A stretch of 33,919 nt of DNA. It comes from Candidatus Aminicenantota bacterium (GTDB taxonomy: Bacteria > Acidobacteriota > Aminicenantia > Aminicenantales > Saccharicenantaceae). How positions within the stretch are numbered: position 1 is the first letter of the stretch; each line of letters begins with the position of its first letter. Position numbers and translations under genes: made by a program. Where the stretch lies: the NCBI GenBank assembly GCA_016867635.1, contig VGJC01000007.1:1-33919 (forward strand), read 5' to 3'. Of the stretch, positions 4,165-17,227 are shown one piece after another. The notes beneath the pieces were generated by a model. The model ran no database searches. It was not told where the DNA came from and worked only from the letters and a program-made list of their open reading frames with translations.

Positions 4165-4336
4165 TCCTCCCGTTCGAAGTTGAGGTCTTTCCGCAGGGGA
4201 CCGGGGGCGACAGGGGCATGGTCGGGAGCGACGGAGGTGACGGGGGCGGAGGCGATGGTTCGGCCGTCGGCCGGCCCTGCTTGCCGGAAGAAGCTGCCTA
4301 GGGTAATGAGGCCATCTCCAATGGAATAAGAGCGGA

Positions 4337-4366
4337 TTTATAGCAGAACGCGTCCGGGATTGTCAA
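4337..4366 (-). promoter_or_regulatory. Promoter of the nuoE/flavoprotein operon
   Basis: On the minus strand TTGACA (4366-4361) and TATAAA (4342-4337) are 18 bases apart. The predicted start of transcription is near 4330, giving a leader of about 165 bases. The motif CGTCCGGGA occurs twice, at 4351-4359 and 4371-4379, exactly 20 bases apart: one copy inside the spacer and one just upstream of the -35 box, a plausible regulator site. Confidence 0.6.
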
Positions 4367-4403
4367 GCGCCGTCCGGGACCTCGGCACCGGGCCCGATTC
4401 GCT

Positions 4404-4425
4404 CCCGGCGGCCGCGGCGGCCGGG
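4404..4425 (-). terminator. GC-only hairpin after the CBS gene
   Basis: A CCCGGC/GCCGGG stem (4404-4409 with 4420-4425) encloses the self-complementary GCCGCGGC. It starts a few bases after the CBS-protein stop, at the end of the hydrogenase operon. There is no following T-run, so it is only a weak terminator candidate. Confidence 0.3.
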
Positions 4426-4429
4426 CCGT

Positions 4430-4867
4430 TCACATGTACTTGCCGATGGCGTAATCCTGAAGGCGCTCGATCGTGAACTGCTGATCGGCGATGAGCGATT
4501 TGACCACGTCGCCGATGGAGACGAGACCCACCAGGCCCTCCTCGCTCATCACGGGAAGATGCCGGATGCGCTTTTCGGTCATGAGGGCCATGCATTCCTC
4601 ATTGGTGGTCTCCGGCCGGACGCAATAGATGGGCGACGCCATGACCTCCCGGACCGGCGTATGGAGCGAGGACTTCCCCTCCAGGACGACCTTCCGTGCG
4701 TAGTCCCGCTCCGAGAAGATGCCGATCACTTTCCCGGCCTCCACGACCGGAAGAGCACCGATGTCCTTGTCGGCCAGGATCTTCAGAGCGTCATAGACTG
4801 TGGCGTCCGGGCTCGTGCTCCAGACGACATGGCCTTTCATTTTCAGCATGCTCCTGACGGTGTTCAT
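4430..4867 (-). CDS. Tandem CBS-domain protein
   Basis: A 145-residue protein made of just two CBS domains (about residues 8-65 and 73-130). Each ends with the family pattern GIFSERDYARK or GLVSIGDVVK. CBS pairs bind adenine nucleotides (AMP, ADP, ATP, SAM or NAD in different families) and work as stand-alone sensors or regulators of a partner. No enzyme or DNA-binding domain is attached. It is the last gene of the group-4 hydrogenase operon, 12 bases after the ferredoxin subunit, with a strong AAGGAGGG ribosome site. A role in tuning that complex to energy charge is inference from position only; unlinked CBS-pair proteins are common and many lack known functions. Confidence 0.9.
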   Translation of the reverse strand: MNTVRSMLKMKGHVVWSTSPDATVYDALKILADKDIGALPVVEAGKVIGIFSERDYARKVVLEGKSSLHTPVREVMASPIYCVRPETTNEECMALMTEKRIRHLPVMSEEGLVGLVSIGDVVKSLIADQQFTIERLQDYAIGKYM

Positions 4868-4879
4868 TGATGACCCTCC

Positions 4880-5506
4880 TTATAGGCCTGGGGAGCCGGT
4901 GCCGGAGAAATCGTCGATCGTGACGATCCTCTGGCGGCACCGGGCGCAGGCCTCCTTGATCTGGTCCTCGCGCCGGAGCCGGGATTTCGGCTTCGACGGC
5001 TCGACCTCGGCCAGCAGCCGCTCGGCGGCCAGGAGAAGAGTGGGATGGGCGAAGGCCTTGGCCCCCAGCCGCTCCTTGATCCAGAGGAGATGTTCCCGAC
5101 AGGCGATGACCTGGCCGCAGCACTCGCAGAGCACGAGCTCTTTCTCGACCGTTTCGAACGCCGCCGGGGCGGCGACGTCCTTGACGGCGAGCGAGTATTC
5201 GTCCGTGTTGAGGATGCCTTTGCCCGTGATGCATTGTTCCGCGCACTGACCGCACTGAATGCACGAGCCGAAATCGACACGCAGCCGGCGCACCTTGCCC
5301 GGGACGTCGTCGTCGGCCTCGATGGCTTGAGAGGGACACACTTGGGCGCAGGTCCCGCAGCCGACACAGTGATCCTTGTCGTATCGGGGCAGGCCGCGGT
5401 AGGCCGGGAAAGACGCGCTCGGCCCGGCCGGATATTTCGTCGTGTAGGGGGCGGAGAAAAACGACCTCAGCGCCTCGCCGATCTCCCGGACCTTAGGAAG
5501 ACGCAT
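4880..5506 (-). CDS. Ferredoxin-like subunit of the group-4 hydrogenase (MbhN/EchF/HyfH-type) with extra C-terminal Cys pairs
   Basis: A 208-residue NuoI-like protein. Two [4Fe-4S] motifs, C47/C50/C53/C57 and C82/C85/C88/C92, follow a short N-terminal segment (SFFSAPYTTKYP) typical of the membrane-docked ferredoxin subunit of energy-converting hydrogenases. It should pass electrons from the soluble donor to the NiFe small subunit. Beyond the ferredoxin core there is an extension with CxxC at C127/C130 and again at C187/C190, about 57 residues apart, consistent with a zinc-ribbon or rubredoxin-like knob; the helical segment between them is Leu/Ala-rich. It overlaps mrpG upstream by 14 bases and has a GAGGAGGG ribosome site. 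Good family assignment; the role of the extension is unknown. Confidence 0.87.
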   Translation of the reverse strand: MRLPKVREIGEALRSFFSAPYTTKYPAGPSASFPAYRGLPRYDKDHCVGCGTCAQVCPSQAIEADDDVPGKVRRLRVDFGSCIQCGQCAEQCITGKGILNTDEYSLAVKDVAAPAAFETVEKELVLCECCGQVIACREHLLWIKERLGAKAFAHPTLLLAAERLLAEVEPSKPKSRLRREDQIKEACARCRQRIVTIDDFSGTGSPGL

Positions 5507-5852
5507 GGCGGCCCTCCTCTTTCAACTCATGATCGGCTTCATAGAGATCGGCCACGCTTTCCGGGCAGAGGGGAACGCGGCTCCGGTGGGCGGCCCGGGC
5601 GATGGCGTGGGCGGAGATCGGCGCCGTGAGGAAGATGAAAGCGATGGCCAGAAGGACCTTGAAGCCGAAGCTGGTCAACCCCTTCAGGACGAAGACGCCG
5701 AAGAGCAGGCCTGCGGAGCCGAAGGTCACGCACTTTGTGGCGGCCTGAAGGCGGGTGTAGACGTCAGGCAAGCGGAGCAGGCCGAGAACGCCGAGGAAAT
5801 TGAAAAGCATCCCGATCCATATGAAGGCCATGCCGATCATGTGCCTAATCAT
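5493..5852 (-). CDS. Mrp antiporter-type subunit G (MrpG/MnhG/MbhC-like)
   Basis: A 119-residue membrane protein with three hydrophobic helices and the MnhG signature (FLGVLGLLRLPDVYTRLQAA at about 18-37). A hydrophilic, charged C-terminal tail of about 30 residues follows. In Mrp antiporters and Mbh hydrogenases this is one of the small subunits of the cation-translocating module. The start at 5852 overlaps the mrpF stop and has a GGGGAGG ribosome site; Met5 and Met8 are less well placed. It sits in the order mrpE-F-G as in Mrp operons. Confidence 0.9.
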   Translation of the reverse strand: MIRHMIGMAFIWIGMLFNFLGVLGLLRLPDVYTRLQAATKCVTFGSAGLLFGVFVLKGLTSFGFKVLLAIAFIFLTAPISAHAIARAAHRSRVPLCPESVADLYEADHELKEEGRHASS

Positions 5853-6183
5853 CGAGACGCCTCCCCTCGAGGACCTTGGCGAAGGCCAGGGCGGCGACGA
5901 AGCTCAGGAGCGCCCAGATGAGGGCGATGTCCATGAAGAACCCTTGCTCGTAATAGAGGCCGAGAAGGGCCAGCACGCCGATGATGAGGACGCCCAGGAT
6001 GTCCAGGGCGATCACCCGGTCGGCCGGGCTGGGCCCGCGGATGACCCGGTAGAGGACGACGAGGGCGCTGAACAGGCTGACGTTGATGAGCTTGACCAGG
6101 AGCGGCCCTTCGAACACGAAGAAGTTGAGGCCGGCCAGGGCGCCGATGACGATCGCTCCGGCCAGCCAGCGCAGGATTCTCAT
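5845..6183 (-). CDS. Mrp antiporter-type subunit F (MrpF/MnhF/MbhB-like)
   Basis: A 112-residue protein with three transmembrane helices. The MnhF core YRVIRGPSPADRVIALDILG (about residues 45-64) is intact, including the Pro-Ser-x-x-Asp-Arg segment and the helix aspartate. The N-terminus carries one more hydrophobic helix than the shortest MrpF proteins. In Mbh and Mrp structures this subunit helps line the sodium path. The start overlaps the mrpE stop (ATGA), with GGAGA upstream. Confidence 0.9.
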   Translation of the reverse strand: MRILRWLAGAIVIGALAGLNFFVFEGPLLVKLINVSLFSALVVLYRVIRGPSPADRVIALDILGVLIIGVLALLGLYYEQGFFMDIALIWALLSFVAALAFAKVLEGRRLDD

Positions 6184-6683
6184 TCGAAAATCTCCTTCAG
6201 GGTCCGTTCGAAACGCCCGCCGATCCTCCTGGTGTTCTCCTCGATGTCGGTCCCGTCGACGGAGAGGCAGTGGATATAGAGTTCTCCGCCCTCGGGATGG
6301 ATGTCCACGGTGAACGTCCCCGGCGTGAGGGTGATGGAGTTGGCCAGGATGGTCAGGGCCGTGTCCCTCGTGAGACCGGTCCGGATCTTGACGATGCCGG
6401 GCCGGATCGGGCGAAGGGGATGGAGGACGATCATGGCGACCTGAACGTTGGCCTTGATCATCTCCCACAGGAACCGGAGAAAATAAAGGAGCGAGAAACC
6501 GGCCCGCCGAAGGAACCCGCGGCGGGGAAACCCGGTCAGGAAATGCCCGGCGACGAAGGTCACCACGAAGGCGACCACGATTCCCGCGGCCATCTCCTGG
6601 ACGCCGGCGCCCGCCGTCAAGGCCATCCAAGCTAAAAAAGCCAGGGCGAAAACGAGGATCCGGCTTTGCGTTCGGGCTTTCAT
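6180..6683 (-). CDS. Mrp antiporter-type subunit E (MrpE/MnhE/MbhA-like)
   Basis: A 167-residue protein. Two or three N-terminal transmembrane helices (about 10-30, 32-48, 62-90) are followed by a cytoplasmic domain. The family motif with LANSITLTPGTFTVDI is at about 112-127, and YIHCLSVDG at 135-143. Lengths and motifs match MnhE. It starts 4 bases after the upstream mrpD-like gene, with GGAGAA ahead of the ATG. It completes, with F and G, the small-subunit set of the cation-translocating module. Confidence 0.9.
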   Translation of the reverse strand: MKARTQSRILVFALAFLAWMALTAGAGVQEMAAGIVVAFVVTFVAGHFLTGFPRRGFLRRAGFSLLYFLRFLWEMIKANVQVAMIVLHPLRPIRPGIVKIRTGLTRDTALTILANSITLTPGTFTVDIHPEGGELYIHCLSVDGTDIEENTRRIGGRFERTLKEIFE

Positions 6684-6687
6684 GTTC

Positions 6688-8163
6688 TCATTTCTCCAAA
6701 ACGATCTGGGCGTGCCCGGTTTTTTCCATGATGACCTTGACCACCGGGTCGATCGTCGTTTCCCGGATCCCCGGGACGATGAGCAGGCTCGTGACCAGGC
6801 ACAGCGCGGCGAGCAGGATCATGGCCGTTTTCATCCCCCCGTCGACCTCCCCGATCAGCCTCTCGACGGGACGCCCGCCCCTCAGCCCGAACTTCTGGAC
6901 CTTCAGGAAAGAGGCCAGCGTGAGCAGGCTGCCGACGACGGCCACGAAGGCGAAGAGAGGCTGGCCGGCCTGGACCGCGGCGATGATGATCACCAGCTTG
7001 CTGAAGAAGCCGTTGAAGGGCGGGACGCCGGAGATCGACAGGGAAGCGATCAGGGACGTTCCCGAGGTGACGGGGAGAAGCTTGGAAACGTTGCCCATTT
7101 CCCTCAGGTCCCGTGTCCCCAACGCGGTTTCCAGGGCTCCCGCGTTGTAGAAGAGGAGCGACTTGAAAACGGCGTGATTGAGCATGTGATAAACGGCCCC
7201 GATCATCCCCAGGGTCGTGTCGAGCCCCATGGCCAGCAGGATGTAACCGATCTGGCTGATGCTGTGATAGGCCAGGAGCCGCTTGATGTCCCATTGGCCG
7301 ATGGCCAGGAGGACGCCGAGAATGATGGACACGGCCCCCAGCACGAGGAAGATCTGAAGGAACAGAGGGGGAGCCCCCAGCACGTTGTAGAAGAAGCGGA
7401 TGAGCACGTAGACGCCCAGGGCTTTGATCAAGACGCCGCTGAGCATGGCCGATATCGGCGCCGGGGCGGACGAGTGGGCGTCGGGAAGCCAGGCGTGGAA
7501 GGGCATGGCCGCCGTCTTGAGGCCGAAGCCGGCCATGAACAGGCCTCCCACCCAGAGGACGAGGATCGGGCTCTGCCGCTCGAGGCCCCGGGAGATCGTG
7601 GCCAAGCCCAGGGACGAAGTGGCGCTATAGGCGACGGCGATGCCGATCAGGATGAGCGAGGCCGAGACCGAGGCCATCACGGCGTACTTGAAGGCCGCCT
7701 CGAACTCGTGGGCCCGGCCCCCGTAGGCGACCAGGGCCAGGGCGGCCAGGATGGCGATCTCCATGAAGACGAAGAGGTTGAAAAGGTCGCCCGTCACGAC
7801 GACGCCGTTCATGCCGGCGACCAGGACCATGAACAGGGAATAATATTTAGCGTCCCCGCCGAGACGATCGATGTATCTCGGCGAAAAGACGAGCGAGGTC
7901 AGGGCGATGAGGCTGACCATCACCAGCATGAAGGAGCTGAAAGCGTCCTGAACCAGGTTGATGCCGACGGGAAGCTTCCAGCCGCTCATCCTGTAGACCA
8001 GGGTCTCTCCGCTCCGGCCGAAGAAGGCGTATCCCGAAAGGACGACGAGGGCGAACGTGGAGGCCAGGGAGAGAAGCACGGCCGGACCGGTCTTGCGCTT
8101 CGACACCAGGGGGATGAGGAAAGCCGCGGCCAGGGGGATGATGACGAAATACGGCGTGATCAT
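6688..8163 (-). CDS. Mrp antiporter-type subunit D (MrpD/NuoN-like), with intact ion-pathway residues
   Basis: A 491-residue polytopic protein (about 14 helices) of the proton-conducting NuoL/M/N-MrpD family. The helix-5 glutamate is present in LFVFMEIAIL (about residue 117), the broken-helix lysine region reads GLKTAAMPFHAWLPDAH, and the later HMLNHAVFKSLLF and GVPPFNGFFSK motifs are intact. This is the more standard of the two antiporter-like subunits in the operon. In Mrp and Mbs-type complexes an MrpD subunit next to MrpA-like parts supports cation or proton exchange. It lies in the order B-C-D-E-F-G, as in classical Mrp operons, and overlaps mrpC by four bases. Whether it moves H+ outward or exchanges H+ for Na+ cannot be read from the sequence. 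Confidence 0.92.
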   Translation of the reverse strand: MITPYFVIIPLAAAFLIPLVSKRKTGPAVLLSLASTFALVVLSGYAFFGRSGETLVYRMSGWKLPVGINLVQDAFSSFMLVMVSLIALTSLVFSPRYIDRLGGDAKYYSLFMVLVAGMNGVVVTGDLFNLFVFMEIAILAALALVAYGGRAHEFEAAFKYAVMASVSASLILIGIAVAYSATSSLGLATISRGLERQSPILVLWVGGLFMAGFGLKTAAMPFHAWLPDAHSSAPAPISAMLSGVLIKALGVYVLIRFFYNVLGAPPLFLQIFLVLGAVSIILGVLLAIGQWDIKRLLAYHSISQIGYILLAMGLDTTLGMIGAVYHMLNHAVFKSLLFYNAGALETALGTRDLREMGNVSKLLPVTSGTSLIASLSISGVPPFNGFFSKLVIIIAAVQAGQPLFAFVAVVGSLLTLASFLKVQKFGLRGGRPVERLIGEVDGGMKTAMILLAALCLVTSLLIVPGIRETTIDPVVKVIMEKTGHAQIVLEK

Positions 8164-8498
8164 CCGGAGAGCCTCCTGATCTTGGTGATGTCGTAGGTCC
8201 GGTATTTCTGGAACAGGCGAACGGCCAGGGCCGCGAGCAGGGAGATGATCCCGAGTTCGATGACGATCGCCGTCAGGACCATGGCCTGCGGCAGGGGATC
8301 GACCATGGCCGCCGCCTCCCGGCCTTTTTCGAGGATGGGGTACGAGGCTTCCCGGCGGTAACCGAAGAGGACCAGCATCATGTTGCAGGCATAGCCCATG
8401 ATCCCCGACGAGAGGATGATCTTGACCAGGTCCCGCTTGGTCAGGATGCCGTACAGGCCGACCAGGAAGAGGGCGAAACAGAGAACGTAAAGCGTCAT
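8160..8498 (-). CDS. Mrp antiporter-type subunit C (MrpC/NuoK/MbhG-like)
   Basis: A 112-residue NuoK-like protein with three transmembrane helices. Typical features are the N-terminal helix with LFLVGLYGILTKRDLVKII, the helix with GYACNMMLVLFGY and the conserved DPLPQAMVLTAIVIELGI (about 71-88), with the Asp-Pro-x-Pro-Gln-Ala loop and the helix glutamate of this family. The ATG at 8498 overlaps the mrpB stop (ATGA). An in-frame upstream reading also exists but lies wholly inside mrpB, so the short form is chosen. Confidence 0.92.
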   Translation of the reverse strand: MTLYVLCFALFLVGLYGILTKRDLVKIILSSGIMGYACNMMLVLFGYRREASYPILEKGREAAAMVDPLPQAMVLTAIVIELGIISLLAALAVRLFQKYRTYDITKIRRLSG

Positions 8499-8947
8499 TC
8501 GTCGTCTCCTTGACTCGGATCGAATTCCGCCAGGGCCAGGACGACGAGGAAGAGAGACAGGCCGACCTTGAGGCCGATGACGATGTTCAGCGGAAGGATG
8601 ACGCCCGAGCTCAACAGGGCGAAGAGCTTCCCTTTGGAAAGGAAGTTGGCCAGGAAAGCGCCTCCCCAGGCCATGCCGGCCAGGCCGAAGCCCAGGAACA
8701 GGAGCGGGGCCGAGTATTCGAGATCCCGGAGGGTTCCCAGGCGCAGCCAATTCAGGGAGAAACCGCGGCCGTAGGCCAGGAGAACGCCCAGGAACCCGAG
8801 CGCCAGGACGACCCCGCCGCCGAAACCCCCTCCCGGGCTCAGGTGGCCGTGAAGGATGATATAGATGCCGTAAAGAAAGATCATCCAGAGGATGAGCCGA
8901 TTCACGGTTTTGACGATGACGGTCAGACCCGGCTTGACGTCCCTCAT
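8495..8947 (-). CDS. Mrp antiporter-type subunit B (MrpB/MnhB/MbhF-like)
   Basis: A 150-residue protein with four transmembrane helices and the clear MnhB signature LHGHLSPGGGFGGGVVLA (about 32-49). The last helix ends in a short acidic tail. MrpB-type subunits pack against the MrpA C-terminal-like part encoded just upstream and against MrpC. Start and stop overlap both neighbours by four bases; GGGAGG precedes the ATG. Confidence 0.93.
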   Translation of the reverse strand: MRDVKPGLTVIVKTVNRLILWMIFLYGIYIILHGHLSPGGGFGGGVVLALGFLGVLLAYGRGFSLNWLRLGTLRDLEYSAPLLFLGFGLAGMAWGGAFLANFLSKGKLFALLSSGVILPLNIVIGLKVGLSLFLVVLALAEFDPSQGDDE

Positions 8948-9489
8948 CGGTCGCCTCCCTTGCCGCTCCGGGCCCGGGTCCGCAGGACGGTCAGCGTTCC
9001 CAGGATGGCCGTGAGCAGGACCGTGATCTCGCCCAGCGTATCGAAGGCCCGGTAATCGAGGATGACCGCGGTCACGACGTTGGCCGCGCCCGTTTCGGCG
9101 GCGGCATGCTCCAGATAGTGCCGGGAGACCTCCATCAGGGGCCGGCCGAAGGCGGGGAGAAGACGAAAAACCTTGAGGCTGAGGGCCAGGATAGCGGCCA
9201 GGCCGATCAGGGTGAAGCCGAAGATCCAGCGGCTCGCGCGGGCCGGCTCCAGGGCGTGGAACTCCTTGCGGACGAAGGCGCAGACAAGGATGATCAAGGC
9301 GAAGATCTCGAAAAGGAACTGGACGACGGCCAGGTCCGGGGCCTGGAGGAAGAGAAAGGCGATGGAGAGGGCCAGGCCGACGACCCCGACGGCGACGATG
9401 GAGGACAGGATGTCCCGGATCTCCAGGGCCACGATCGACCCCAGGATCATGAACCCCAAGAGAAAGATCAGCCAGGTCTCGACGGGCAT
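8944..9489 (-). CDS. MrpA C-terminal-like subunit (fused MbhD-MbhE)
   Basis: A 181-residue membrane protein joining two pieces that are separate genes in Pyrococcus Mbh. Residues 1-85 are the DUF4040-like part, three helices with LQAPDLAVVQFLFEI. Residues about 95-175 are the MbhE-like part, with ILDYRAFDTLGEITVLL, where the Asp-x-Arg-Ala-Phe-Asp-Thr-x-Gly-Glu motif is diagnostic of the MrpA C-terminus. Together they link the hydrogenase-side antiporter subunit to the Mrp small subunits. It has a strong AAGGAGGAG ribosome site and lies 24 bases after the large antiporter-like gene. Confidence 0.88.
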   Translation of the reverse strand: MPVETWLIFLLGFMILGSIVALEIRDILSSIVAVGVVGLALSIAFLFLQAPDLAVVQFLFEIFALIILVCAFVRKEFHALEPARASRWIFGFTLIGLAAILALSLKVFRLLPAFGRPLMEVSRHYLEHAAAETGAANVVTAVILDYRAFDTLGEITVLLTAILGTLTVLRTRARSGKGGDR

Positions 9490-9513
9490 GCGCTCCTCCT
9501 TGTCATGGTCGTT

Positions 9514-11319
9514 CTATCCCGCCAGGATCATGAACAGCAGGACTCCGAACAGGATGAAAAGGACATAGACCTGGAGCTGTCCGGCGTGCGCTCTCTGAAG
9601 GAGATGGGACAGGCCGAAGGTGGCCTTGGAGCCGAGGTCGTAAACGTCGAAGGCCTTGTTTTCGGCCTGCCGATAGAGCGTCGCAAGCGGCCTCATCTCC
9701 GTGATCTCTTTGTAGAAATCAGTGCCCGTGACCCGGAAGGCCTCGGACGGGACGTGGCCGCCGATATAGGCGCCGTCGCGGCGGGTCTTCGCGGTCAGGA
9801 GATAGACGGCCAAGCCGGCCAGAAAGCCGATGACGAAAAGGGTCAGGATGAGATTCGGACGATAGAAGCCGGGATAGGTGAAGGCCTCGAATCCGGCCTC
9901 CCGGGCCGCCGGAAAGACGAAAAGACGGAGCGGCACGGCTTGAGCGAACAGGCCGAAGACGACGCAGAGCAGGGCCAGAAGCCCCGTGGCCAGCCACTGA
10001 TTGGCCGGGGCTTCCCGGAGGCCTTCGAACCGCTCGGGCCGCCGGCCCAGGAAAACGGCATGGAGGAATTTCATGAAGCTGGCCAGGGTCAGGGCACTGC
10101 CGAAGACGGCCATGATCAGGCAGACGAGAAGCCAGACGGCGTAGGCCGGAGCGAGCCCGCCCGCTTGTTCCAGCAGCCCCTGGTAGATCATCCACTTGGA
10201 GAAGAAGCCGTTGAAAGGCGGGAGGCCGGAGATCGAGAGAGCGCCGACGAGAGCCATGGCGAACGTCGCCGGCATGGCCTTGGCCAGGCCTCCCAGCTCG
10301 TCGAGATCGTGGCTCCCGGCCCGCTTCTCGGCCGAACCGAGGGCCAGGAAGAGATTGGACTTGTAAAGGACGTTGTTGAGGAGATGGAAAAGGCCCCCGG
10401 CGAAGGCCAGGGCGTGGCCGCTGGCGACGCCCATGATCATGTAGCCGACCTGGCTGACGGCGTGATATCCGAGCAGGCGCCGGCCGTTGTGCTGGACCAT
10501 GGCCATCATCACGGCGACGATGACGGTCAAGGCACCGAGGGTGACGACGATCATCCGGGTGAAGAGACCGACCTCGAAATAGCCGCCCATCATCCGGGCC
10601 AGAAGATAGATGCCGAGCAGCTTGTCCAGCGAGGCCGGCAGGAAGGCCGCGCTCTCGACCGGGGCGTCCCGGCTGAAATCCGGCACCCAGGTGTGGAGAG
10701 GGAAGCCGCCCGCCTTGGCGAAGGCGGCGATGAGCAGGAAGACGAAGGCCAGAGCCTCGGCCGGGCCGGCGAGGGGGATGCGGGCGTCGAACAGGGACCA
10801 TCCCGACGACATCGCCGCAAGGGCCAGGCCCATGATCAGGAAAACGTCGCTTCCGCCGACCAGGATGAACGTCTTTTTCGCCGTCGCCGACGCGCTTTCG
10901 CCCTGCCCGAGTAGGGCGAACCCATAGAGGGCGAGCCCCGACAGGCCCCAGAAAACGAGGAACCCGACTCCATGGGAGCTCAAAACGGTCCCGTTGGCGC
11001 AGGCCAGCGTCAAGGGATAGAGGACCAGGAAGGTTCTCTCCGTCCCGGGATCCAGCCCCTTGAGGCAGAAAAGAAAGATGATCAGGCCGATGATGTGGAT
11101 GAAGGCCAGGGAAAAGAAGGACAGATCGTCGAGGGACAAGGCGGTCGTGCCGAACAAGGCGACAGACGGTGGAGGGGCGCCGAAGAACCCCCGGACAAGG
11201 ACGCCTCCCAGGATGATCCCGATGACGGTCATCGCTTTGCGCAGGGCGATGGGAAGGAAGAGGTTGAGCAGGGCGACGGCCAGCGGGGCGGCGATGACCA
11301 AGACGAGCGGGCTATCCAT
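9514..11319 (-). CDS. Large antiporter-like subunit (NuoL/HyfB/MbhH-type) lacking the helix-5 glutamate
   Basis: A 601-residue polytopic protein of the NuoL/M/N family with a C-terminal extension (about 500-601) ending in a further transmembrane helix, as in NuoL/HyfB-type subunits with a lateral connection. The later ion-path residues are present: AKAGGFPLHTWVPD (K202, H209), GYHAVSQVGYM (H286), NNVLYKSNLF (K320) and LPPFNGFFSK (K375). The helix-5 position that is normally Glu in NuoL/M and MrpD (Trp/Phe-Glu) is Gly125 in LVFWGLSGLALYG, so the usual proton-entry carboxylate is missing. It follows the NiFe large subunit with an 8-base overlap and GGAGGGAG before the ATG, so it is probably the subunit nearest the hydrogenase arm. 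Confidence 0.9.
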   Translation of the reverse strand: MDSPLVLVIAAPLAVALLNLFLPIALRKAMTVIGIILGGVLVRGFFGAPPPSVALFGTTALSLDDLSFFSLAFIHIIGLIIFLFCLKGLDPGTERTFLVLYPLTLACANGTVLSSHGVGFLVFWGLSGLALYGFALLGQGESASATAKKTFILVGGSDVFLIMGLALAAMSSGWSLFDARIPLAGPAEALAFVFLLIAAFAKAGGFPLHTWVPDFSRDAPVESAAFLPASLDKLLGIYLLARMMGGYFEVGLFTRMIVVTLGALTVIVAVMMAMVQHNGRRLLGYHAVSQVGYMIMGVASGHALAFAGGLFHLLNNVLYKSNLFLALGSAEKRAGSHDLDELGGLAKAMPATFAMALVGALSISGLPPFNGFFSKWMIYQGLLEQAGGLAPAYAVWLLVCLIMAVFGSALTLASFMKFLHAVFLGRRPERFEGLREAPANQWLATGLLALLCVVFGLFAQAVPLRLFVFPAAREAGFEAFTYPGFYRPNLILTLFVIGFLAGLAVYLLTAKTRRDGAYIGGHVPSEAFRVTGTDFYKEITEMRPLATLYRQAENKAFDVYDLGSKATFGLSHLLQRAHAGQLQVYVLFILFGVLLFMILAG

Positions 11320-12496
11320 GGAGCTCCCTCCTCAACCGGTCGGTTTTCTCCCGCGATAGCCGGATGAGATCGGTGGCGACGCGGGCCCCGCGCCCATCCA
11401 CGACATGGATGGCCCTCTCCGTGCAGCAGTAGCAGGGGTCGATGGCGGCCAGCGTGATCAGCGCGTCGGCCAGCGGGATCCCTTTGCATGATGCCGCGCA
11501 GGTGGGGATGTTCATATAGCTCGGGGCCCGGACCTTGTGGCGGACGGGGCGGTTCGAGCCGTCCGTCCGGACGTAGTGGAAGACCTCGCCCCGGGGGGCT
11601 TCGTAGCGGCCGATGCCCTCGCCGGCCGAGATCTCCTTGACGTCGTTGAGGATCGTTCCCGGCGCTGTCCTGAGCTTCTCCAGGCACTGCCGGACGATCT
11701 TGATGGACTCCACGGTCTCCAGGACCCGGACCACGAGCTTGCCGTAGACGTCGCCGCTGTCGAGGACGATCGATTTGAAGTCGACCAGGCCGTAGGCGTC
11801 CCTGGGCTCGTCCTTGCGCACGTCGATAGACACGCCCGAGGCCCGGGCCGTCGGTCCGACGGTGCAGTAGTCGACGGCCGCTTGACGGCTCAGGATGCCC
11901 ACGCCCTTGAGGCGCGTCTTGAGCACGGGATCGTCGGCCGCCGCCTTGGCGATCATGTCCATCTTCCGCTCGATCATGTCCAGGGTCTCGAGGAGGGGCG
12001 GGACGGCTTCGGGCGCGACGTCGCGGGCCACCCCGCCGACGCGCATCATGCCGTAGTGGTTCCGGTTGCCGGTGATCGTCTCGAAGATGTCGAGCACCGG
12101 CTCCCGGTACCTCCAGGCCCACATCCAGAGGGTGTCGTAGCCGATGAAGTGTCCGGCCAGTCCCAGCCAGAGGAGATGGCTGTGAATGCGCTCGAGCTCG
12201 CCGACGAGGGTCCGGATGTAGGCGGCCCGGACCGGGACCTCCACGTTGTCCACGTCCTCGACGGCGTGGACGAAGGCGATGGGGTGGGACGTCGAGCAGA
12301 TGCCGCAGATGCGCTCAACGAGGAAGATGGACTGGGTGAAGGTCTTGCCCTCGGAGATGTATTCGTGGCCGCGGTGCATGTACCCGATGTCGATATCGAT
12401 GCCCGTGACCGTCTCTCCGTCCACGTGGATCTTGAAGAACTCGGCCTCCTCGAGCAGAGGATGGAACGGGCCGACGGGGATCGTCGTCTTGGTCAT
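11312..12496 (-). CDS. Group-4 [NiFe]-hydrogenase large subunit (EchE/MbhL/HyfG-like)
   Basis: A 394-residue catalytic subunit. All four cysteines needed for the Ni-Fe site are present: C64 and C67 in ERICGICSTSH, and C355 and C358 in DPCYCCTER. Their presence argues against a complex-I NuoD or an Mbx/Mbs subunit that has lost them. The region around the second pair is odd in having an extra cysteine (C357) where group-4 enzymes usually show Ser. About 33 residues follow Arg361, so C-terminal processing may occur. It should reduce protons (or oxidise H2) at the cytoplasmic face of the membrane complex. The ATG at 12496 overlaps the NuoC-like stop and has a GGAGGAGG site; longer readings into that gene are rejected. 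Confidence 0.95.
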   Translation of the reverse strand: MTKTTIPVGPFHPLLEEAEFFKIHVDGETVTGIDIDIGYMHRGHEYISEGKTFTQSIFLVERICGICSTSHPIAFVHAVEDVDNVEVPVRAAYIRTLVGELERIHSHLLWLGLAGHFIGYDTLWMWAWRYREPVLDIFETITGNRNHYGMMRVGGVARDVAPEAVPPLLETLDMIERKMDMIAKAAADDPVLKTRLKGVGILSRQAAVDYCTVGPTARASGVSIDVRKDEPRDAYGLVDFKSIVLDSGDVYGKLVVRVLETVESIKIVRQCLEKLRTAPGTILNDVKEISAGEGIGRYEAPRGEVFHYVRTDGSNRPVRHKVRAPSYMNIPTCAASCKGIPLADALITLAAIDPCYCCTERAIHVVDGRGARVATDLIRLSREKTDRLRRELHG

Positions 12497-12924
12497 TTCG
12501 TCCTCCTCCGTCGCAGGGGCAGGTGAGGGGCTTTCGGGTGGTCCCTGGTCAGAAGTCTCTCCGGTTGAGGATGGCCGACGAAGGTGATGCCGAGAAGCTC
12601 GGACATTTCCCGTTCGATCCACTCCGCGCCTATGACCACGGGCGCGATCGAAGGCGCCTTCGGGTCTTTCAGGTCGGCGATGACCAGGCGCGGGCAGAAA
12701 TAGCGCCCCGTGGCGTCGTGGGAGAAATGGTAGAGGACCTCGAGCCCGCGGTACATCTCCATGGCCGTGGCCGTCGACAGGCGGCAGCCCATCGTCCGGA
12801 ACAGATAGCGCACCACCTCGAGCAAGTTCTCGTCGGCCACTTCGAAATACAGGCGTCCCTTCTTTTCGGTCGTCCGGCCGATCTTGCCGGCCAGGGGTCG
12901 GAGAAATCCCTCTTGGTCAGGCAT
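12493..12924 (-). CDS. NuoC-like (30-kDa) hydrogenase subunit (MbhK/EchD-type)
   Basis: A 143-residue homologue of the 30-kDa complex-I subunit. It has the recognisable core YHFSHDATGRYFCPRLVIAD followed by the short loop and helix (AEWIEREMSELLGITFVGHP) that ends NuoC proteins before LLTRDHPKAPHLPL. It has no cofactor and scaffolds the small and large NiFe subunits. It starts 8 bases inside the small-subunit gene and ends overlapping the large-subunit start. Confidence 0.88.
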   Translation of the reverse strand: MPDQEGFLRPLAGKIGRTTEKKGRLYFEVADENLLEVVRYLFRTMGCRLSTATAMEMYRGLEVLYHFSHDATGRYFCPRLVIADLKDPKAPSIAPVVIGAEWIEREMSELLGITFVGHPQPERLLTRDHPKAPHLPLRRRRTK

Positions 12925-13336
12925 TGAGCACTCCCACGAGCTTCACGATCGCATCGATCATCGCCTCCGGCTTGGGCGGACACCCCGTGACATAGAGGTC
13001 GAAGGGGATGACATCCTCCCGGCGGGGGACGGTGTTGTAGCTCTCCTTAAAGCAGCATCCCGAGATCGGGCACGTCCCGACGCCGACAACGAAAACGGGC
13101 TTGGGGGCCTGCTCGTAGACGCGGCGGACCCGGGGAGCGACCTTCTCGTTGATGACCCCCGTGACCAGGAGGACATCGGCGTGCCTGACCGAGCCGACCA
13201 GCTTGATCCCGAAGCGCTCGACATCGTACCGTGGCGTCAGGAGGTCCAGGATCTCGATGTCGCAGTTGTTGCACGGCGAGGCGCTGACGTGAAAGACCCA
13301 AAGCGATTTGGCCAGACGTTTGTTGTACCAGCCCAT
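12917..13336 (-). CDS. Group-4 [NiFe]-hydrogenase small subunit (NuoB/EchC/MbhJ-like)
   Basis: A 139-residue small subunit carrying the single proximal [4Fe-4S] cluster. The ligands are C22 and C25 (SPCNNCDIE), C89 (GTCPISG) and C119 (TGCPPKPE), as in NuoB and group-4 small subunits; C94 and C95 are additional. It takes electrons from the ferredoxin subunit and delivers them to the Ni-Fe site. The ATG at 13336 has GGGAG upstream; the longer reading through the NuoH-like gene is rejected because it would overlap that gene by almost 500 bases. Confidence 0.93.
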   Translation of the reverse strand: MGWYNKRLAKSLWVFHVSASPCNNCDIEILDLLTPRYDVERFGIKLVGSVRHADVLLVTGVINEKVAPRVRRVYEQAPKPVFVVGVGTCPISGCCFKESYNTVPRREDVIPFDLYVTGCPPKPEAMIDAIVKLVGVLNA

Positions 13337-13338
13337 GG

Positions 13339-14268
13339 TCAGACTCCCAGGACGGCCAGGACGACGGCCGCCAGTGCCAGCGGTGAAAGATATTTCCAGA
13401 AGAACGCGATGGCGGTGTCCGTCCGCACGCGGGGATTGGTGTTCTTGATGATGATCATCAGGACGAGGATCAGGAGGTATTTCAAAACGCCCCAGACGAC
13501 GCCCGGCCCCGTCAGTTGGAATCCTCCCCAGAAGAGCAGGATGAGCAGGAAGGGAAAGACGACGAACATCATGAACTGGTTGAGCTTCCAAAAGGCGAGC
13601 AGCGGCCCGCTGTATTCTATGAAAGGACCGGCCACGATCTCGGTCTCGGCTTCCGGGATATGGAAGGGCGGCAGGGCCATCTTGGCCTGGACGGCCAGGA
13701 GGGCCACGACGAAGGCCGCCGCCCCCGAGACCGAGCCGACGAGCATCCCGTGTTCGGCCTGCCGGGCCAGGATATCGGCCAGTTGCGGCCGGTAGCCGGC
13801 GTGGACGATGGGGACGAGACACGCCAGGATGAACGGCAGCTCGTCCGCCAGGAGGAGCTTGACCTCCCGGCCGGCGCCGAGGCCGGCGTAGACGTTGCCG
13901 GCGGCCGCGCCGCCGAGAACGATGGTCACCGAATACAACATGAGGAGGTACATGACGACGATGAGGTCGCCCCCGGTGTCCCTCCCGAAGAACAGGGCGG
14001 TCCCGACGAACGTGGCGACGAGGGATATGACGGCGAACCCGGCCAGCGGCGCGGCGACGAAGAGCCAGGGGACGCCTTCCTTGACCAGCATGGCCTCCTT
14101 GCCCAGAAGCTTGAAGAAGTCGTTGAAGTTCTGGAAGAGGGGCGGGCCGACGCGGTACTGGAAGCGGGCCGAGACCTTGCGGTCCAACCAGCCGGCTATG
14201 AGCCCCAGGCCGGCCGTGAACACGATGCCGGGAAAGACGAGGAAATCGAACAGGATCGAGGCCTTCAT
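13339..14268 (-). CDS. NuoH-like membrane subunit (EchB/MbhM/HyfC-type)
   Basis: A 309-residue membrane protein with about eight helices, anchoring the hydrogenase arm to the membrane module. The NuoH signature is intact: AGWLDRKVSARFQYRVGPP near residues 25-43 and PPFHIPEAETEIVAGPFIEY at about 197-216, keeping the conserved acidic residues of the quinone-site/E-channel region. It starts four bases inside the polyferredoxin gene with GGAGGG before the ATG, and is followed after two bases by the small-subunit gene. Confidence 0.93.
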   Translation of the reverse strand: MKASILFDFLVFPGIVFTAGLGLIAGWLDRKVSARFQYRVGPPLFQNFNDFFKLLGKEAMLVKEGVPWLFVAAPLAGFAVISLVATFVGTALFFGRDTGGDLIVVMYLLMLYSVTIVLGGAAAGNVYAGLGAGREVKLLLADELPFILACLVPIVHAGYRPQLADILARQAEHGMLVGSVSGAAAFVVALLAVQAKMALPPFHIPEAETEIVAGPFIEYSGPLLAFWKLNQFMMFVVFPFLLILLFWGGFQLTGPGVVWGVLKYLLILVLMIIIKNTNPRVRTDTAIAFFWKYLSPLALAAVVLAVLGV

Positions 14269-14774
14269 GGCCGGCCCTCCTTGCGCCGCCAGCTCGGGCT
14301 CCGGACGGCCAGGTGCTCTCCGGCGAAATAGATATGGTTGGCGGGGTCTTCAGCCGGCAGGTCCCTCATCAGGAACGTTCCGGGCGGAGCGGTCCTGACG
14401 CAGAGGGGAAGATAGTCCGGGTCATCGGCGAGCTGGTTCAGGCAGAGGTCGCACTTGGCCGTGACGTAGTTGATGACCTCGGGAAAGATGGTCCCGAACG
14501 GGCAGGCCAGGACACAGCTCTTGCATCCCACGCAGCGCATGTTGTAGCGCTTGACGGCCCCGTCGGCCTGCCTCTCCAGGGCCTCCTTGGGGCAGGCGGT
14601 GACGCAGAACGCCTCTTTGCATTGGCGGCAGTAGGCGGCGAACTCGGCCACCTCGAGCAGGGAGAAGGCGCCCGGATTGTCCCTGTGGAACAGGTATTCG
14701 CACTCGATCCGGTCGGCCGGCGTGCCGGAGGACAGCAGGGCCGGGACGTCGATGAACAGCCTTTTCAATCCCAT
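14265..14774 (-). CDS. HydN/HycB-like polyferredoxin
   Basis: A 169-residue Fe-S protein with C49/C52/C57/C61, C81/C84/C87/C91 and a third group C108/C111/C125. In HycB/HydN/CooF relatives the third group ends in a fourth cysteine (CVxxCP), but here the sequence reads CVRTAPPGT, with Ala129 in that place. C25 may substitute, or that cluster may be lost or altered. The likely role is to wire the diaphorase proteins encoded upstream to the hydrogenase core downstream. A GGAGGG site decides the ATG at 14774 over a much longer reading that runs through the diaphorase gene. Confidence 0.87.
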   Translation of the reverse strand: MGLKRLFIDVPALLSSGTPADRIECEYLFHRDNPGAFSLLEVAEFAAYCRQCKEAFCVTACPKEALERQADGAVKRYNMRCVGCKSCVLACPFGTIFPEVINYVTAKCDLCLNQLADDPDYLPLCVRTAPPGTFLMRDLPAEDPANHIYFAGEHLAVRSPSWRRKEGRP

Positions 14775-15589
14775 ATTCCCTCCTCGTCCTTGATCCGGGC
14801 GTAGGTGAAGACGGGGCCGTCCTTGCAGACGTAGTATTCGCCCATCATGCAGTGGCGGCACTGGCCGAACCCACAGTACATCTTTTTCTCCATGGACAGG
14901 TAGATCCGGTCTTCGCGGAAGCCGAGCCGGAGGAGGTCGCGGGTCCCGAACTTCATCATCACCGGCGGCCCGCAGACGACGGCCGGCGTTTCCCGGGGAT
15001 CGACGTCCAGCTTCTTCAGGAGACCGGTCACGAGGCAGACCTCCTCCTCCCAGGTCTCGCCGGGAGGGACGGCGTCGACGGCCCGGACGAGCTTGACCTG
15101 CGGATGTTTGTGCCATTCGGCGAAGGCGTCCTTGAAGGGGCAATCCTGGGGCGTCTTGGCGCCGGCGTAGAACGTGACGCTTTTGTATTTCCCGATCTCG
15201 TCGAGGAGCGTCAGGAAGAGGGAACGCAGGGGAGCCAGCCCGCAGCCTCCGCCCAGAAGAAGCAGGTCGCGGCCCTCGAATTCCTCCAGAGGATAAGAGG
15301 AGCCGAACGGCCCGCGCAGGCCGACCCGGTCCCCCGGTTTCGCCCTGTGAATGTGCTCGGTCACGAACCCGGCCTTCATGATGGTGACGTCCATGATGTC
15401 GGTGATGAAGTGAGAGGAGGAGGGCGTGAAGGGCGCCTCCCCGACGCCCGGCAGGCTCAGCTCGATGAATTGCCCCGTCCGGAAAGGCAGGGGGCGGTCC
15501 GGTTTCAAGCGCAGGGTCCGGATGAGAGGGGTCTCGTCGATCGTGTCGGTGATGACGGCCGGGACGGCTTCGTAGGGATTGGGTCTCAT
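14765..15589 (-). CDS. HydG/AsrB-like FAD, [2Fe-2S] NAD(P)H oxidoreductase subunit
   Basis: A 274-residue ferredoxin-NADP reductase-like protein. Residues about 1-100 form the FAD barrel (FRTGQFIELSLPG at 36-48). The NAD(P)-binding fold follows (LLLLGGGCGLAPLRSL near 109-124 and CGPPVMM near 203-209). A C-terminal [2Fe-2S] site has C239, C244, C247 and C255. This is the arrangement of the gamma subunit of archaeal sulfhydrogenases, AsrB of anaerobic sulfite reductase, and PyrK. It should exchange electrons between NAD(P)H and the HydB/AsrA-like protein encoded upstream. No sulfite reductase catalytic subunit (AsrC) is nearby, and the next genes are hydrogenase genes, so a diaphorase for the membrane hydrogenase is the better reading. 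It has GAGGAGG before the ATG and overlaps the polyferredoxin gene by ten bases. Confidence 0.9.
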   Translation of the reverse strand: MRPNPYEAVPAVITDTIDETPLIRTLRLKPDRPLPFRTGQFIELSLPGVGEAPFTPSSSHFITDIMDVTIMKAGFVTEHIHRAKPGDRVGLRGPFGSSYPLEEFEGRDLLLLGGGCGLAPLRSLFLTLLDEIGKYKSVTFYAGAKTPQDCPFKDAFAEWHKHPQVKLVRAVDAVPPGETWEEEVCLVTGLLKKLDVDPRETPAVVCGPPVMMKFGTRDLLRLGFREDRIYLSMEKKMYCGFGQCRHCMMGEYYVCKDGPVFTYARIKDEEGIWD

Positions 15590-15599
15590 GGCGACCTCC

Positions 15600-16649
15600 T
15601 CATCCGGCCTCAGCGGAACGTTCTCCGGAAGGCATCTCCATGAGGCGCCGGACGACGCTCCGGAATTCGATCCCTCCGGGACAGGCCTCGGTGCAGCGGC
15701 CGCAACCAGTGCAACCGAGGGCCCCGAACTCGCCTTTCATGATGACGAGCTTGCAAAGGTAACGGTGCCGGAAACGGTCATCCACGCGGGGGCGCGGGGA
15801 TACGCCGGCGGCGACCCGAGCATAGCCATGGAGCTGGCAGGAGTCGTAACTGCGAACTTTGAGGAAAGCCCCACCTCGGCCTTCTTCGTTCAGGATGAGG
15901 CAGTAGCAGGTCGGACAGATGTGAGTGCAGGCCCCGCAGCCGACGCATTCCCGAGCTTCTTCCTGCCATGCTTGGGGAGGGCTGGAGCGCAGGCGTCCGT
16001 AGTCCTTGGGGCGTTGAAAAGCCTCGTTCTGCGCTTGGACCCTGGCCGTCATCTCGGCCCTCCGGGTCTCGGCGGCCGGCGGCATTTGGGTACAGGCAGC
16101 GTCGACCCGGGCATGACGACCAATGAGTTCGAGCAAGGCCCGGCCTTTCTCCGTGGCGGCGCTGAGGTAGTAGTCCTGACCGAAGCGGGCCGCATTGGCA
16201 TCGAACCCCGTCTCCGCGAACGGCTTGCCGCCCGTCAGCGTACAGTGGCATGTCGGGCCGACGTCGGTACAGTCGAAGCTGAGGATGGTGGTCCGCTCGC
16301 GCCACGAGGCATAGGCCGGGTCCGTGAAATCCCCATTGATGAGAGCCCGGTCGAGGACCTCGAAGCCCTTGACGTCGCAGGCCTTGACCCCGGCCAGAAG
16401 AGCGGGGGAGGAACTCCCGGCGAACGGTGCAACTCCCTCCCTCACTCTATAGGCCAGGAGCTTGGGAGGATCCACGGACCGGTATCCGTCGAGGGCCAAC
16501 CGTAGATCCCCCCTCAACGGGGCCAGCGAGGAAAAGGATGCGCCCCCGTCGCCCGGCTTGATGGGAACATGGATCTTCCGGTAGGGGCCGATGGGCTCGT
16601 CCCGGCAGCGCCTAAGAAACGATTCCAGCTCGTCCGATGGTATCAGCAC
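15600..16649 (-). CDS. HydB/AsrA-like iron-sulfur protein
   Basis: A 349-residue protein of the sulfhydrogenase beta/anaerobic sulfite reductase A family. The N-terminal part has GVKACDVKGFEVLDR (about 87-101) and FDCTDVGPTCHC (about 125-136). The C-terminal part has two [4Fe-4S] motifs, C235/C238/C241/C245 and C313/C316/C319/C323; C248 and C250 are additional cysteines. Such proteins carry electrons between a HydG/AsrB-like flavoprotein and a catalytic subunit. It is the first gene of the 17-gene operon. The start is GTG with an AAAGGGGG ribosome site. Pairing with a group-4 membrane hydrogenase, instead of the cytosolic group-3b enzyme, is the unusual point. Confidence 0.88.
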   Translation of the reverse strand: MLIPSDELESFLRRCRDEPIGPYRKIHVPIKPGDGGASFSSLAPLRGDLRLALDGYRSVDPPKLLAYRVREGVAPFAGSSSPALLAGVKACDVKGFEVLDRALINGDFTDPAYASWRERTTILSFDCTDVGPTCHCTLTGGKPFAETGFDANAARFGQDYYLSAATEKGRALLELIGRHARVDAACTQMPPAAETRRAEMTARVQAQNEAFQRPKDYGRLRSSPPQAWQEEARECVGCGACTHICPTCYCLILNEEGRGGAFLKVRSYDSCQLHGYARVAAGVSPRPRVDDRFRHRYLCKLVIMKGEFGALGCTGCGRCTEACPGGIEFRSVVRRLMEMPSGERSAEAG

Positions 16650-16660
16650 GCGTACCCCCT

Positions 16661-16732
16661 TTATCCAGAACGTGCGGAAAAATGGCGGACTTGTCCATGA
16701 CGATCACGATGTACCGCCGCGAATGCGGCCAT
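16661..16732 (-). CDS. Possible 23-residue leader peptide ahead of the membrane hydrogenase operon
   Basis: The transcript leader contains an ATG reading frame of 23 codons, beginning MAAFAAVHRDRH and ending with TAA, which touches the ribosome site (AAAGGGGG) of the first structural gene. A GGGGAAAG stretch lies about 9 bases before its ATG. No homology is recognised, and a random short frame is possible in this GC-rich DNA. The peptide has no run of one amino acid that would suggest classical attenuation. Confidence 0.25.
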   Translation of the reverse strand: MAAFAAVHRDRHGQVRHFSARSG

Positions 16733-16763
16733 AATAAATCACTTTCCCCGATATATGGCCCCC

Positions 16764-16793
16764 TTTATATACCGAGTATTTTGGCCTTGTCAA
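16764..16793 (-). promoter_or_regulatory. Promoter of the membrane hydrogenase operon
   Basis: TTGACA (16793-16788) is followed after 16 bases by TATATA (16771-16766), or after 18 by TATAAA (16769-16764). This is one of the AT-richest spots in the region. Transcription should start near 16758, giving a leader of about 110 bases before the GTG start. The leader holds a GCCGC-ATTC-GCGGC hairpin and a GGCGG...CCGCC pair followed by ATTTTT. Confidence 0.7.
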
Positions 16794-16796
16794 TAG

Positions 16797-16854
16797 AAAA
16801 AACGCCGTTCTTGCGTATTGGAGGCGGCGCGACGCGGAACAGGCGAGCGGCGTT
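16797..16854 (-). terminator. Terminator-like structure after hypA
   Basis: On the minus strand AACGCCG (16854-16848) can pair with CGGCGTT (16807-16801), followed at once by further T residues, making a run of six T (16802-16797). It lies directly after hypA and just before the -35 box of the next operon. The loop is long (about 40 bases), so the efficiency is uncertain. Confidence 0.45.
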
Positions 16855-16861
16855 CTCCCGG

Positions 16862-17227
16862 TTAGGAAGACGAGGGCGGCTCGTCCGCTTCGAGCTCGAT
16901 CCTCTCGACGACGAGGTCCCGGCCCTCGAGGAGCTCGACGTCCCGGCCGCCGCACACGAGGCAGGCGAAGGACCCCTCGACGTCGAGCCTCTCACCGCCG
17001 CAGCTCCGGCAGCGGAGACGCACGGGGACCTCCTCGATCTCCAGCCGGGCGCCGTCGGCGATCGTTCCTTTCTTATAGGTCTCGAAGGCCGACTCGAGGA
17101 GCTCGGGGACGGCGCCGGAGAGCTTGCCGACCTTCAGGCGGACCACGGTGATCCGGGCGGCCCGGTGTTCGCGGGCCTTCTCTTCGAGGGTCTCGAAGAG
17201 GGCGGCGACGAGGGACAGCTCATGCAT
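16862..17227 (-). CDS. hypA: Hydrogenase nickel incorporation protein HypA
   Basis: A 121-residue nickel metallochaperone for [NiFe]-hydrogenase assembly. It has the N-terminal MHELSL with His2 as Ni ligand, and a zinc site made of C73/C76 and C89/C92. The length is normal. It passes nickel to the hydrogenase precursor together with HypB, whose gene overlaps it by eight bases. It ends the hox operon and could serve both hydrogenases in the window. Confidence 0.95.
   Translation of the reverse strand: MHELSLVAALFETLEEKAREHRAARITVVRLKVGKLSGAVPELLESAFETYKKGTIADGARLEIEEVPVRLRCRSCGGERLDVEGSFACLVCGGRDVELLEGRDLVVERIELEADEPPSSS

Follow-up and report, generated by a model that had tools for sequence, protein, structure and literature searches.

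We analysed a stretch of 33,919 nucleotides (hereafter the window), which is contig C7 of a 2.66 Mb Aminicenantes metagenome-assembled genome (MAG) in 298 contigs. Seventeen genes on its minus strand, running from 16649 to 4430, form an operon that joins a HydB-HydG pair (HydBG) to a group-4 [NiFe]-hydrogenase and a full Mrp module. Gene assignments are Pfam and NCBIfam profile matches, and every gene that had been named in a first-pass annotation of the sequence was found on this strand between these positions. The upstream region and the genes are as follows.

16650-16861, minus strand: upstream region of the operon, without a Rex operator
15600-16649, minus strand: HydB/AsrA-like protein, 349 amino acids, first gene; NCBIfam sulfhydrogenase HydB/ShyB and AsrA models; predicted electron-transfer Fe-S protein of the diaphorase pair; best solved relative, Pyrococcus furiosus sulfhydrogenase I (SHI) beta, 9nez_B
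14765-15589, minus strand: HydG/AsrB-like FAD/NAD(P)-binding reductase with [2Fe-2S], 274 amino acids; PF00175, PF00970, PF10418; best solved relative, SHI gamma, 9nez_C (186 bits)
14265-14774, minus strand: HycB/CooF/HydN-type ferredoxin, 169 amino acids; PF13247; overlaps hydG by 10 bp; solved relatives include HycB of formate hydrogenlyase (FHL) and HycB of HDCR
13339-14268, minus strand: NuoH-like membrane anchor; PF00146 (210 bits)
12917-13336, minus strand: NuoB-like hydrogenase small subunit, one [4Fe-4S] cluster; PF01058
12493-12924, minus strand: NuoC-like subunit; PF00329
11312-12496, minus strand: NuoD-like [NiFe]-hydrogenase large subunit, group 4; PF00346 and PF00374; best solved relative, MbhL, 6cfw_L
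9514-11319, minus strand: ND5/MrpA-N-like antiporter subunit, 601 amino acids; PF00361; best solved relative, 6u8y_X
8944-9489, minus strand: MbhD+MbhE (MrpA C-terminal domain); PF13244, PF20501
8495-8947, minus strand: MnhB/MrpB; PF04039
8160-8498, minus strand: MnhC/MrpC, NuoK-like; PF00420
6688-8163, minus strand: MnhD/MrpD antiporter subunit; PF00361 (220 bits); best solved relative, MbhH, 6cfw_H
6180-6683, minus strand: MnhE/MrpE; PF01899
5845-6183, minus strand: MnhF/MrpF; PF04066
5493-5852, minus strand: MnhG/MrpG; PF03334
4880-5506, minus strand: NuoI/HycF-like ferredoxin (Fer4 domains) with a C-terminal Cys quartet (C127, C130, C187, C190)
4430-4867, minus strand: CBS-domain protein, last gene; PF00571

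The 16 genes from HydB to the NuoI-like protein are packed at spacings of -14 to +24 bp, that is, they overlap or leave gaps of at most 24 bp. The spacing is 10 bp between HydB and HydG, -10 bp between HydG and the ferredoxin, and -4 bp between the ferredoxin and NuoH, and these overlapping genes tie HydBG to the hydrogenase genes. The operon had earlier been drawn from 4430 to 16793; the end at 4430 stands, but 16793 falls in the upstream region, where no longer HydB reading frame reaching it was found. The third gene, which had been called a polyferredoxin, proved to be the HycB/CooF/HydN-like protein listed above. The Mrp B-C-E-F-G subunits and two antiporter-like subunits described earlier are all present, and the set is in fact the full complement from MrpA to MrpG, because the ND5-like protein and MbhD/E represent a split MrpA and MnhD is there as well.

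Searching 84,980 species genomes with the large subunit yielded at least 552 confirmed relatives. The locus comparisons use the best 80 of these loci, with large subunits 59-85% identical to that of the window; they were picked by this likeness, close relatives included, and the counts describe the clade and not the whole of group 4g. They span roughly twenty phylum-level lineages, named as in the records, and the closest named relative among the matches listed is Candidatus Aminicenantes bacterium RBG_16_66_30 (L093; large subunit 85%). In all 32 loci where the first 16 genes were all found, their order is identical, which is far from chance. A search for the same 17-gene order had been suggested as a check on the operon; it succeeds for these 16 genes and fails for the CBS gene, which among the best 80 loci has the same position in Aminicenantes relatives only (L038, L093). 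A hydrogenase maturation protease gene lies near the operon in 37 of the 80 loci.

HydB and HydG stand ahead of the ferredoxin gene in 52 of the 54 loci that have at least 5.5 kb before the large subunit. The HydB-HydG-ferredoxin junctions of the relatives show a single order and are mostly overlapping or at most 30 bp long. HydBG is thus a near-constant part of a broad clade, which is new in this analysis. The conserved order also speaks against the possibility, raised in the first-pass annotation, that the first three genes are a separate transcript unrelated to the hydrogenase; HydBG, the hydrogenase core and the Mrp genes are one conserved unit. The pair is missing upstream of the ferredoxin gene in two loci, L077 and L080, both from Cloacimonadota. 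Directly upstream in L080 stands a hydrogenase-related complex that lacks Ni ligands and has a CBS protein and a fused NuoI-GltD-type pyridine nucleotide oxidoreductase; the hits in L077 follow the same pattern.

We counted Cys conservation over 47-81 sequences per subunit and found the cofactor motifs intact. HydG carries FAD and NAD(P) domains and a [2Fe-2S] motif (C239-C244-C247-C255) that is invariant, as is C206; its GGG.GLAP region is kept, and position 145, which bears on the choice between NADH and NADPH, is K or R. HydB has its Fe-S motifs, with 15 Cys invariant in 61 sequences, and the two proteins together make up a HydBG module. Twelve Cys of the HycB-type ferredoxin are invariant (one of them at 99%), and three [4Fe-4S] clusters are expected. 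The four cluster Cys of the small subunit are invariant, and so are both CxxC Ni-ligand pairs of the large subunit (CGIC and DPCYCC, 81 sequences), which ends in a C-terminal extension as for a processed [NiFe]-hydrogenase. The two CxxC pairs, the NuoB-type small subunit and the NuoH and NuoC partners place the enzyme in [NiFe] group 4.

The NuoI-like protein has eight Cys and the further quartet, all invariant in 47 sequences. HycF (7z0s_F) is its top chain of the complex I superfamily, at 53 bits; polyferredoxins outscore HycF, through their repeated domains. In FHL of Escherichia coli the matching HycF quartet belongs to an extension at the C-terminus, which touches HycB close to FdhF (PMC9474812), which suggests that the quartet is a dehydrogenase-docking interface. 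The MbhN chain has 139 amino acids and aligned to the NuoI-like subunit only up to residue 110. Because the quartet and the best match are of HycF type whereas MbhN is short, the electron-input end appears to resemble that of FHL rather than that of Mbh, with HydBG in the place of the dehydrogenase.

In the large-subunit tree, 81 large subunits lie on one side of a branch with 99% SH-aLRT support, and MbhL, HycE, Nqo4 and the Aminicenantes paralogues lie opposite; the references in this tree are few and long-branched. Among solved structures MbhL matches the window's large subunit best (295 bits), yet it falls outside the clade, on a long branch and with few references around it. Within the clade, the window's sequence belongs to a set of 35 rows (96% SH-aLRT) that come mainly from Neomarinimicrobiota, Ignavibacteriota and KSB1. 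Because it nests among these sequences, lateral transfer is plausible. The same large subunit occurs in only two of 60 related genomes, G006 and G011 (91% fragment), and nearly all the others have a different large subunit with an identity of about 45% or less.

The HydG proteins of the clade are monophyletic (100/98) and stand apart both from their sulfhydrogenase counterparts and from the HydG encoded in a compact paralogous cluster of the same genome. Their distances correlate with those of the large subunit (r = 0.91; HydB, r = 0.89) as the distances of the core subunits do (r = 0.90-0.94), which would fit long joint inheritance. MnhD gave r = 0.39, probably because in 11 loci the ND5 protein had been taken for it. 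Among 54 true orthologues, MnhD keeps E135, K216, K247 and K389 in at least 53. The ND5-like subunit aligns with subunit X of the P. furiosus Mbs complex (6u8y_X) to residue 589, into the C-terminal region.

The compact cluster lies on contig C15 (L041, G000:C15:5001-25000, 3414-13346) and is a second HydBG-linked group-4 hydrogenase, with the order FdhA-like, HydB, HydG, HycI, one antiporter, NuoCD, NuoH, NuoI and small subunit. This type of order (FdhA-like, HydB, HydG, antiporter, NuoCD, NuoH, NuoI, small) was found in seven of seven related-genome loci (L128-L134), the protease being seen in some of the seven only. HydBG has therefore been combined with two or more kinds of group-4 hydrogenase.

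Rex is a sensor of the NADH/NAD+ ratio. At a threshold of at least 13 of 14 matches, 10 Rex-type operators were found in 1.22 Mb of loci; eight of them fall in the 220 bp that precede hydB, which make up about 1% of the sequence, and another is found ahead of rex in L117. Near-perfect operators (TTGTGA-N6-TCACAA) stand upstream of hydB in L097, L102, L103, L112, L113, L115, L120 and L121. The strong sites come from Bacillota-like, Omnitrophota and Nitrospirota loci, and weaker sites were seen in Elusimicrobiota and Aerophobota loci. In L097, L102, L103 and L117, hydB is directly preceded by a rex gene, confirmed by Pfam in L117 and assigned by similarity cluster in the others. As predicted operators, these sites mark hydB as the first gene of the transcript and, in those lineages, connect the operon with the NADH/NAD+ ratio.

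We infer that the product of the operon is one physical complex of the Mbh/FHL/complex I superfamily, and its donor, direction and ion are likewise read from the genes. At a probability of a little under 0.6, it would be a reversible, NAD(P)H-linked and probably also ferredoxin-linked, Na+/H+-translocating, H2-evolving membrane complex with HydBG as its input. In such a complex the FAD of HydG would oxidise NAD(P)H, and electrons would pass from the [2Fe-2S] cluster of HydG through the [4Fe-4S] clusters of HydB to the HycB-like ferredoxin subunit. From there the HycF/NuoI-like and small subunits would relay them to the [NiFe] site for the reduction of protons to H2. The NuoH-like subunit would couple this redox reaction to the full Mrp module, which would move Na+ and/or H+. 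HydBG would thereby stand in for the dehydrogenase (formate or CO) found in group-4 respiratory hydrogenases, and a second input could be reduced ferredoxin. The transfer of electrons from NAD(P)H to H2 is uphill at standard conditions and favourable for NADPH when H2 is low. With NADPH (at low H2) or ferredoxin as donor, ions could be exported, whereas with NADH the enzyme would tend to work near equilibrium or spend ion-motive force. The first-pass annotation had proposed NAD(P)H and/or ferredoxin input together with ion pumping, and the evidence supports this by inference.

Several observations weigh against this interpretation. Thermodynamically, H2 formation from NAD(P)H is marginal except at low H2. 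No Rex operator was found in the upstream region of the window (p = 0.98) and no rex hit in the window's genome, so that the link to NADH by regulation rests on the relatives; moreover, some enzymes with no binding site for NADH are under Rex control. The agreement of the distance matrices is partly a product of common descent. The glutamate position of transmembrane helix 5 in the ND5-like subunit is Gly in 64 of 67 clade sequences; the subunit retains K149, K202, K233, E331 and K375, and its pumping route may be different. Finally, the C15 cluster, where the pair follows a molybdopterin oxidoreductase gene, means that HydBG might serve another enzyme in trans.

The operon could instead encode an ordinary ferredoxin-driven hydrogenase of Mbh type (group 4g) with HydBG as a side branch, for example as a ferredoxin:NAD(P)+ outlet. 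The driving force is greater for ferredoxin to H2, the large subunit and MnhD are nearest to Mbh among solved structures, ferredoxin coupling is suggested by HydDB (PMC5037454), and it was adopted for Ca. Saelkia and Ca. Celaenobacter (PMC8542988). However, Mbh of P. furiosus works with neither a HycB-type bridge nor HydBG, while the clade retains HydBG at the rate given above with every cofactor Cys intact, and its NuoI subunit bears the FHL-type C-terminal quartet. We regard this explanation as unlikely, although it has to be taken seriously. It is very improbable that the enzyme is confurcating and oxidises NAD(P)H and reduced ferredoxin jointly to form H2 with ion transport. Two kinds of input subunit, HydBG and the ferredoxin-like proteins, do occur in the single operon, but HydG has a single FAD domain of the PyrK/SHI type, the operon has no NuoF-, NfnB- or EtfAB-like bifurcating flavin subunit, and the nearby NuoE-NuoF/GltD genes lie beyond a 265-bp gap and are unlinked in relatives.

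The complex may also run in the reverse direction in vivo, with NAD(P)+ and/or ferredoxin reduced at the expense of H2 and ion-motive force. In principle both group-4 enzymes and modules of the HydBG type can work either way, and two antiporter-like subunits could take in several ions per electron pair. The hosts, however, are mostly MAGs from lineages considered anaerobic fermenters, and the genome has a group-3d Hox-type operon and, on contig C1, an [FeFe]-hydrogenase, which are better suited to simple NAD+ reduction; the reverse direction seems improbable. That HydBG is no subunit at all, but a co-transcribed soluble oxidoreductase, AsrAB- or sulfhydrogenase-like, with another partner, is hardly credible. 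Such pairs do occur elsewhere, in group 3b-like operons (L098) and in the compact group-4 locus after its molybdopterin enzyme, but the operon has no AsrC or group-3b catalytic gene, the hydG and ferredoxin genes overlap, and the linkage is kept across many phyla. In L098, a Verrucomicrobia MAG, a HydB-HydG-small-large set that looks like group 3b lies directly ahead of the group-4 operon (665-5190).

The first-pass annotation had not recognised the complex as a described type, which needs qualification. The clade contains L113, a locus from the MAG of Ca. Saelkia tenebricola, whose sole identified hydrogenase was classed as 4g by its authors (PMC8542988); the HydDB label belongs to L113 and not to the window. 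HydDB describes group 4g as of 'undetermined role' with putative ferredoxin coupling (PMC5037454). In the part of the later report available to us, the 4g hydrogenases of Ca. Saelkia and of Ca. Celaenobacter antarcticus (L080) are Mrp-linked and read as passing electrons from ferredoxin to H2, and HydBG is not discussed (PMC8542988). Both large subunits fall in the same clade as that of the window; L113 has the same operon with HydBG and Mrp, whereas L080 is without HydBG. In 2019, Saganbacteria RX5A was reported to have an 'enigmatic' group 4 hydrogenase with Mrp subunits, cooF, asrA, asrB and a molybdopterin oxidoreductase (PMC6349859). Its hydrogenase, Mrp-like, cooF, asrA and asrB genes are as in the window, and its closest sequences are from Zixibacteria and Omnitrophica; the window operon lacks the molybdopterin oxidoreductase, and such an FdhA-like gene stands beside only three of the 80 relatives (L097, L102, L103). 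The parts list is thus not wholly new. This analysis adds the constancy of HydBG, the fact that mostly no formate dehydrogenase gene travels with the operon, the FHL-type docking mark and the Rex link. We found no biochemical work on this hydrogenase type in the open literature (most subscription journals and all preprints are outside this coverage).

Among characterised systems, P. furiosus Mbh (group 4d, 6CFW) shares with the window the NiFe core, NuoH, MbhD/E and MrpB-G-type subunits, with MbhH as its MrpD. It has one antiporter subunit where the window has two, lacks HydBG and the HycB-like bridge, and has a short MbhN without the Cys quartet; membership of group 4d would call for input subunits restricted to a ferredoxin-accepting NuoI-like protein, whereas the operon has HydBG and the HycB-like ferredoxin. 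FHL and the formate-respiring Fdh-Mrp-Mbh enzymes (4a, 4b) are like the window in having an input dehydrogenase, a HycB-type bridge, a HycF-type subunit and a NiFe core, and 4b also has Mrp. Their input is FdhA and not HydBG, no formate dehydrogenase catalytic gene lies within the operon, though an FdhA might act in trans, and the window's large subunit is in a clade separate from HycE. Sulfhydrogenase I (group 3b, 9NEZ) has homologous HydB and HydG, the closest among solved structures, but it is a soluble enzyme built on a group-3 catalytic pair and lacks a membrane part, while the window's enzyme is of membrane type with a NuoD-like, group-4 large subunit. The P. furiosus sulfane reductase Mbs (6U8Y) likewise has two antiporter-like subunits, and among solved chains its subunit X matches the ND5-like protein best; Mbs has neither the NiFe site nor HydBG, both of which the window has. 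Pfam and NCBIfam found no AsrC sirohaem gene of an AsrABC system in the operon.

With somewhat less than even confidence, we suggest that the clade is a widespread class of respiratory hydrogenase in which NAD(P)H itself is the donor and H2 evolution pumps Na+/H+. It would be a membrane-bound equivalent of the soluble sulfhydrogenase, HydBG would be a third input module besides formate and CO dehydrogenases, and Rex would exert control in some phyla. Group 4g has official standing among the hydrogenase subgroups but no known role, and the operon offers a testable donor against the assumed ferredoxin. If HydBG is the input of this subgroup, many uncultured fermenters (Neomarinimicrobiota, Cloacimonadota, Omnitrophota, Ignavibacteriota and others) could make H2 straight from NAD(P)H and at the same time trade energy with an ion gradient, and models of their redox balance and energy conservation would change. 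HydBG would also add a module to the modular evolution of complex I-like enzymes. No RnfC was found above the cut-off in the window's genome (about 93% complete), so few other ferredoxin-NAD(H) membrane links would remain.

Upstream of the operon lie two nickel-insertion genes, which were assigned from their translations and not by a family-library search.

16862-17891, minus strand: hypB (17891-17220) and hypA (17227-16862)

A HoxFE-HoxU-HoxY-HoxH operon (22959-18349, minus strand), which looks like a group 3d NAD-linked hydrogenase, lies immediately upstream, with hypB-hypA after it. Hox-type genes and HypB likewise adjoin the group-4 operon in two Neomarinimicrobiota loci (L069, L073). HydBG as part of this Hox hydrogenase was ruled out, because the Hox operon has its own HoxFE and HoxU.

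On the other side, positions 4164-1 (minus strand) hold NuoE, a NuoF-GltD fusion of 1054 amino acids and a NuoG-like gene truncated where the contig ends. The 265-bp gap separates these genes from the operon, they are not kept with it in relatives, and a 93% copy lies on G000:C219. In relatives the cluster runs, by eye, toward an apparent glutamate-synthase-type FMN protein. A formate dehydrogenase or [FeFe]-hydrogenase module for the complex at 4164-1 was rejected because of this continuation, because the genes are unlinked elsewhere and because the [FeFe]-hydrogenase is encoded on contig C1. Farther away on the minus strand, we noted by eye an Hsp20-like small heat-shock gene (29741-29274) and, as two separate genes, an amidase and an NAD synthase (32181-30525).

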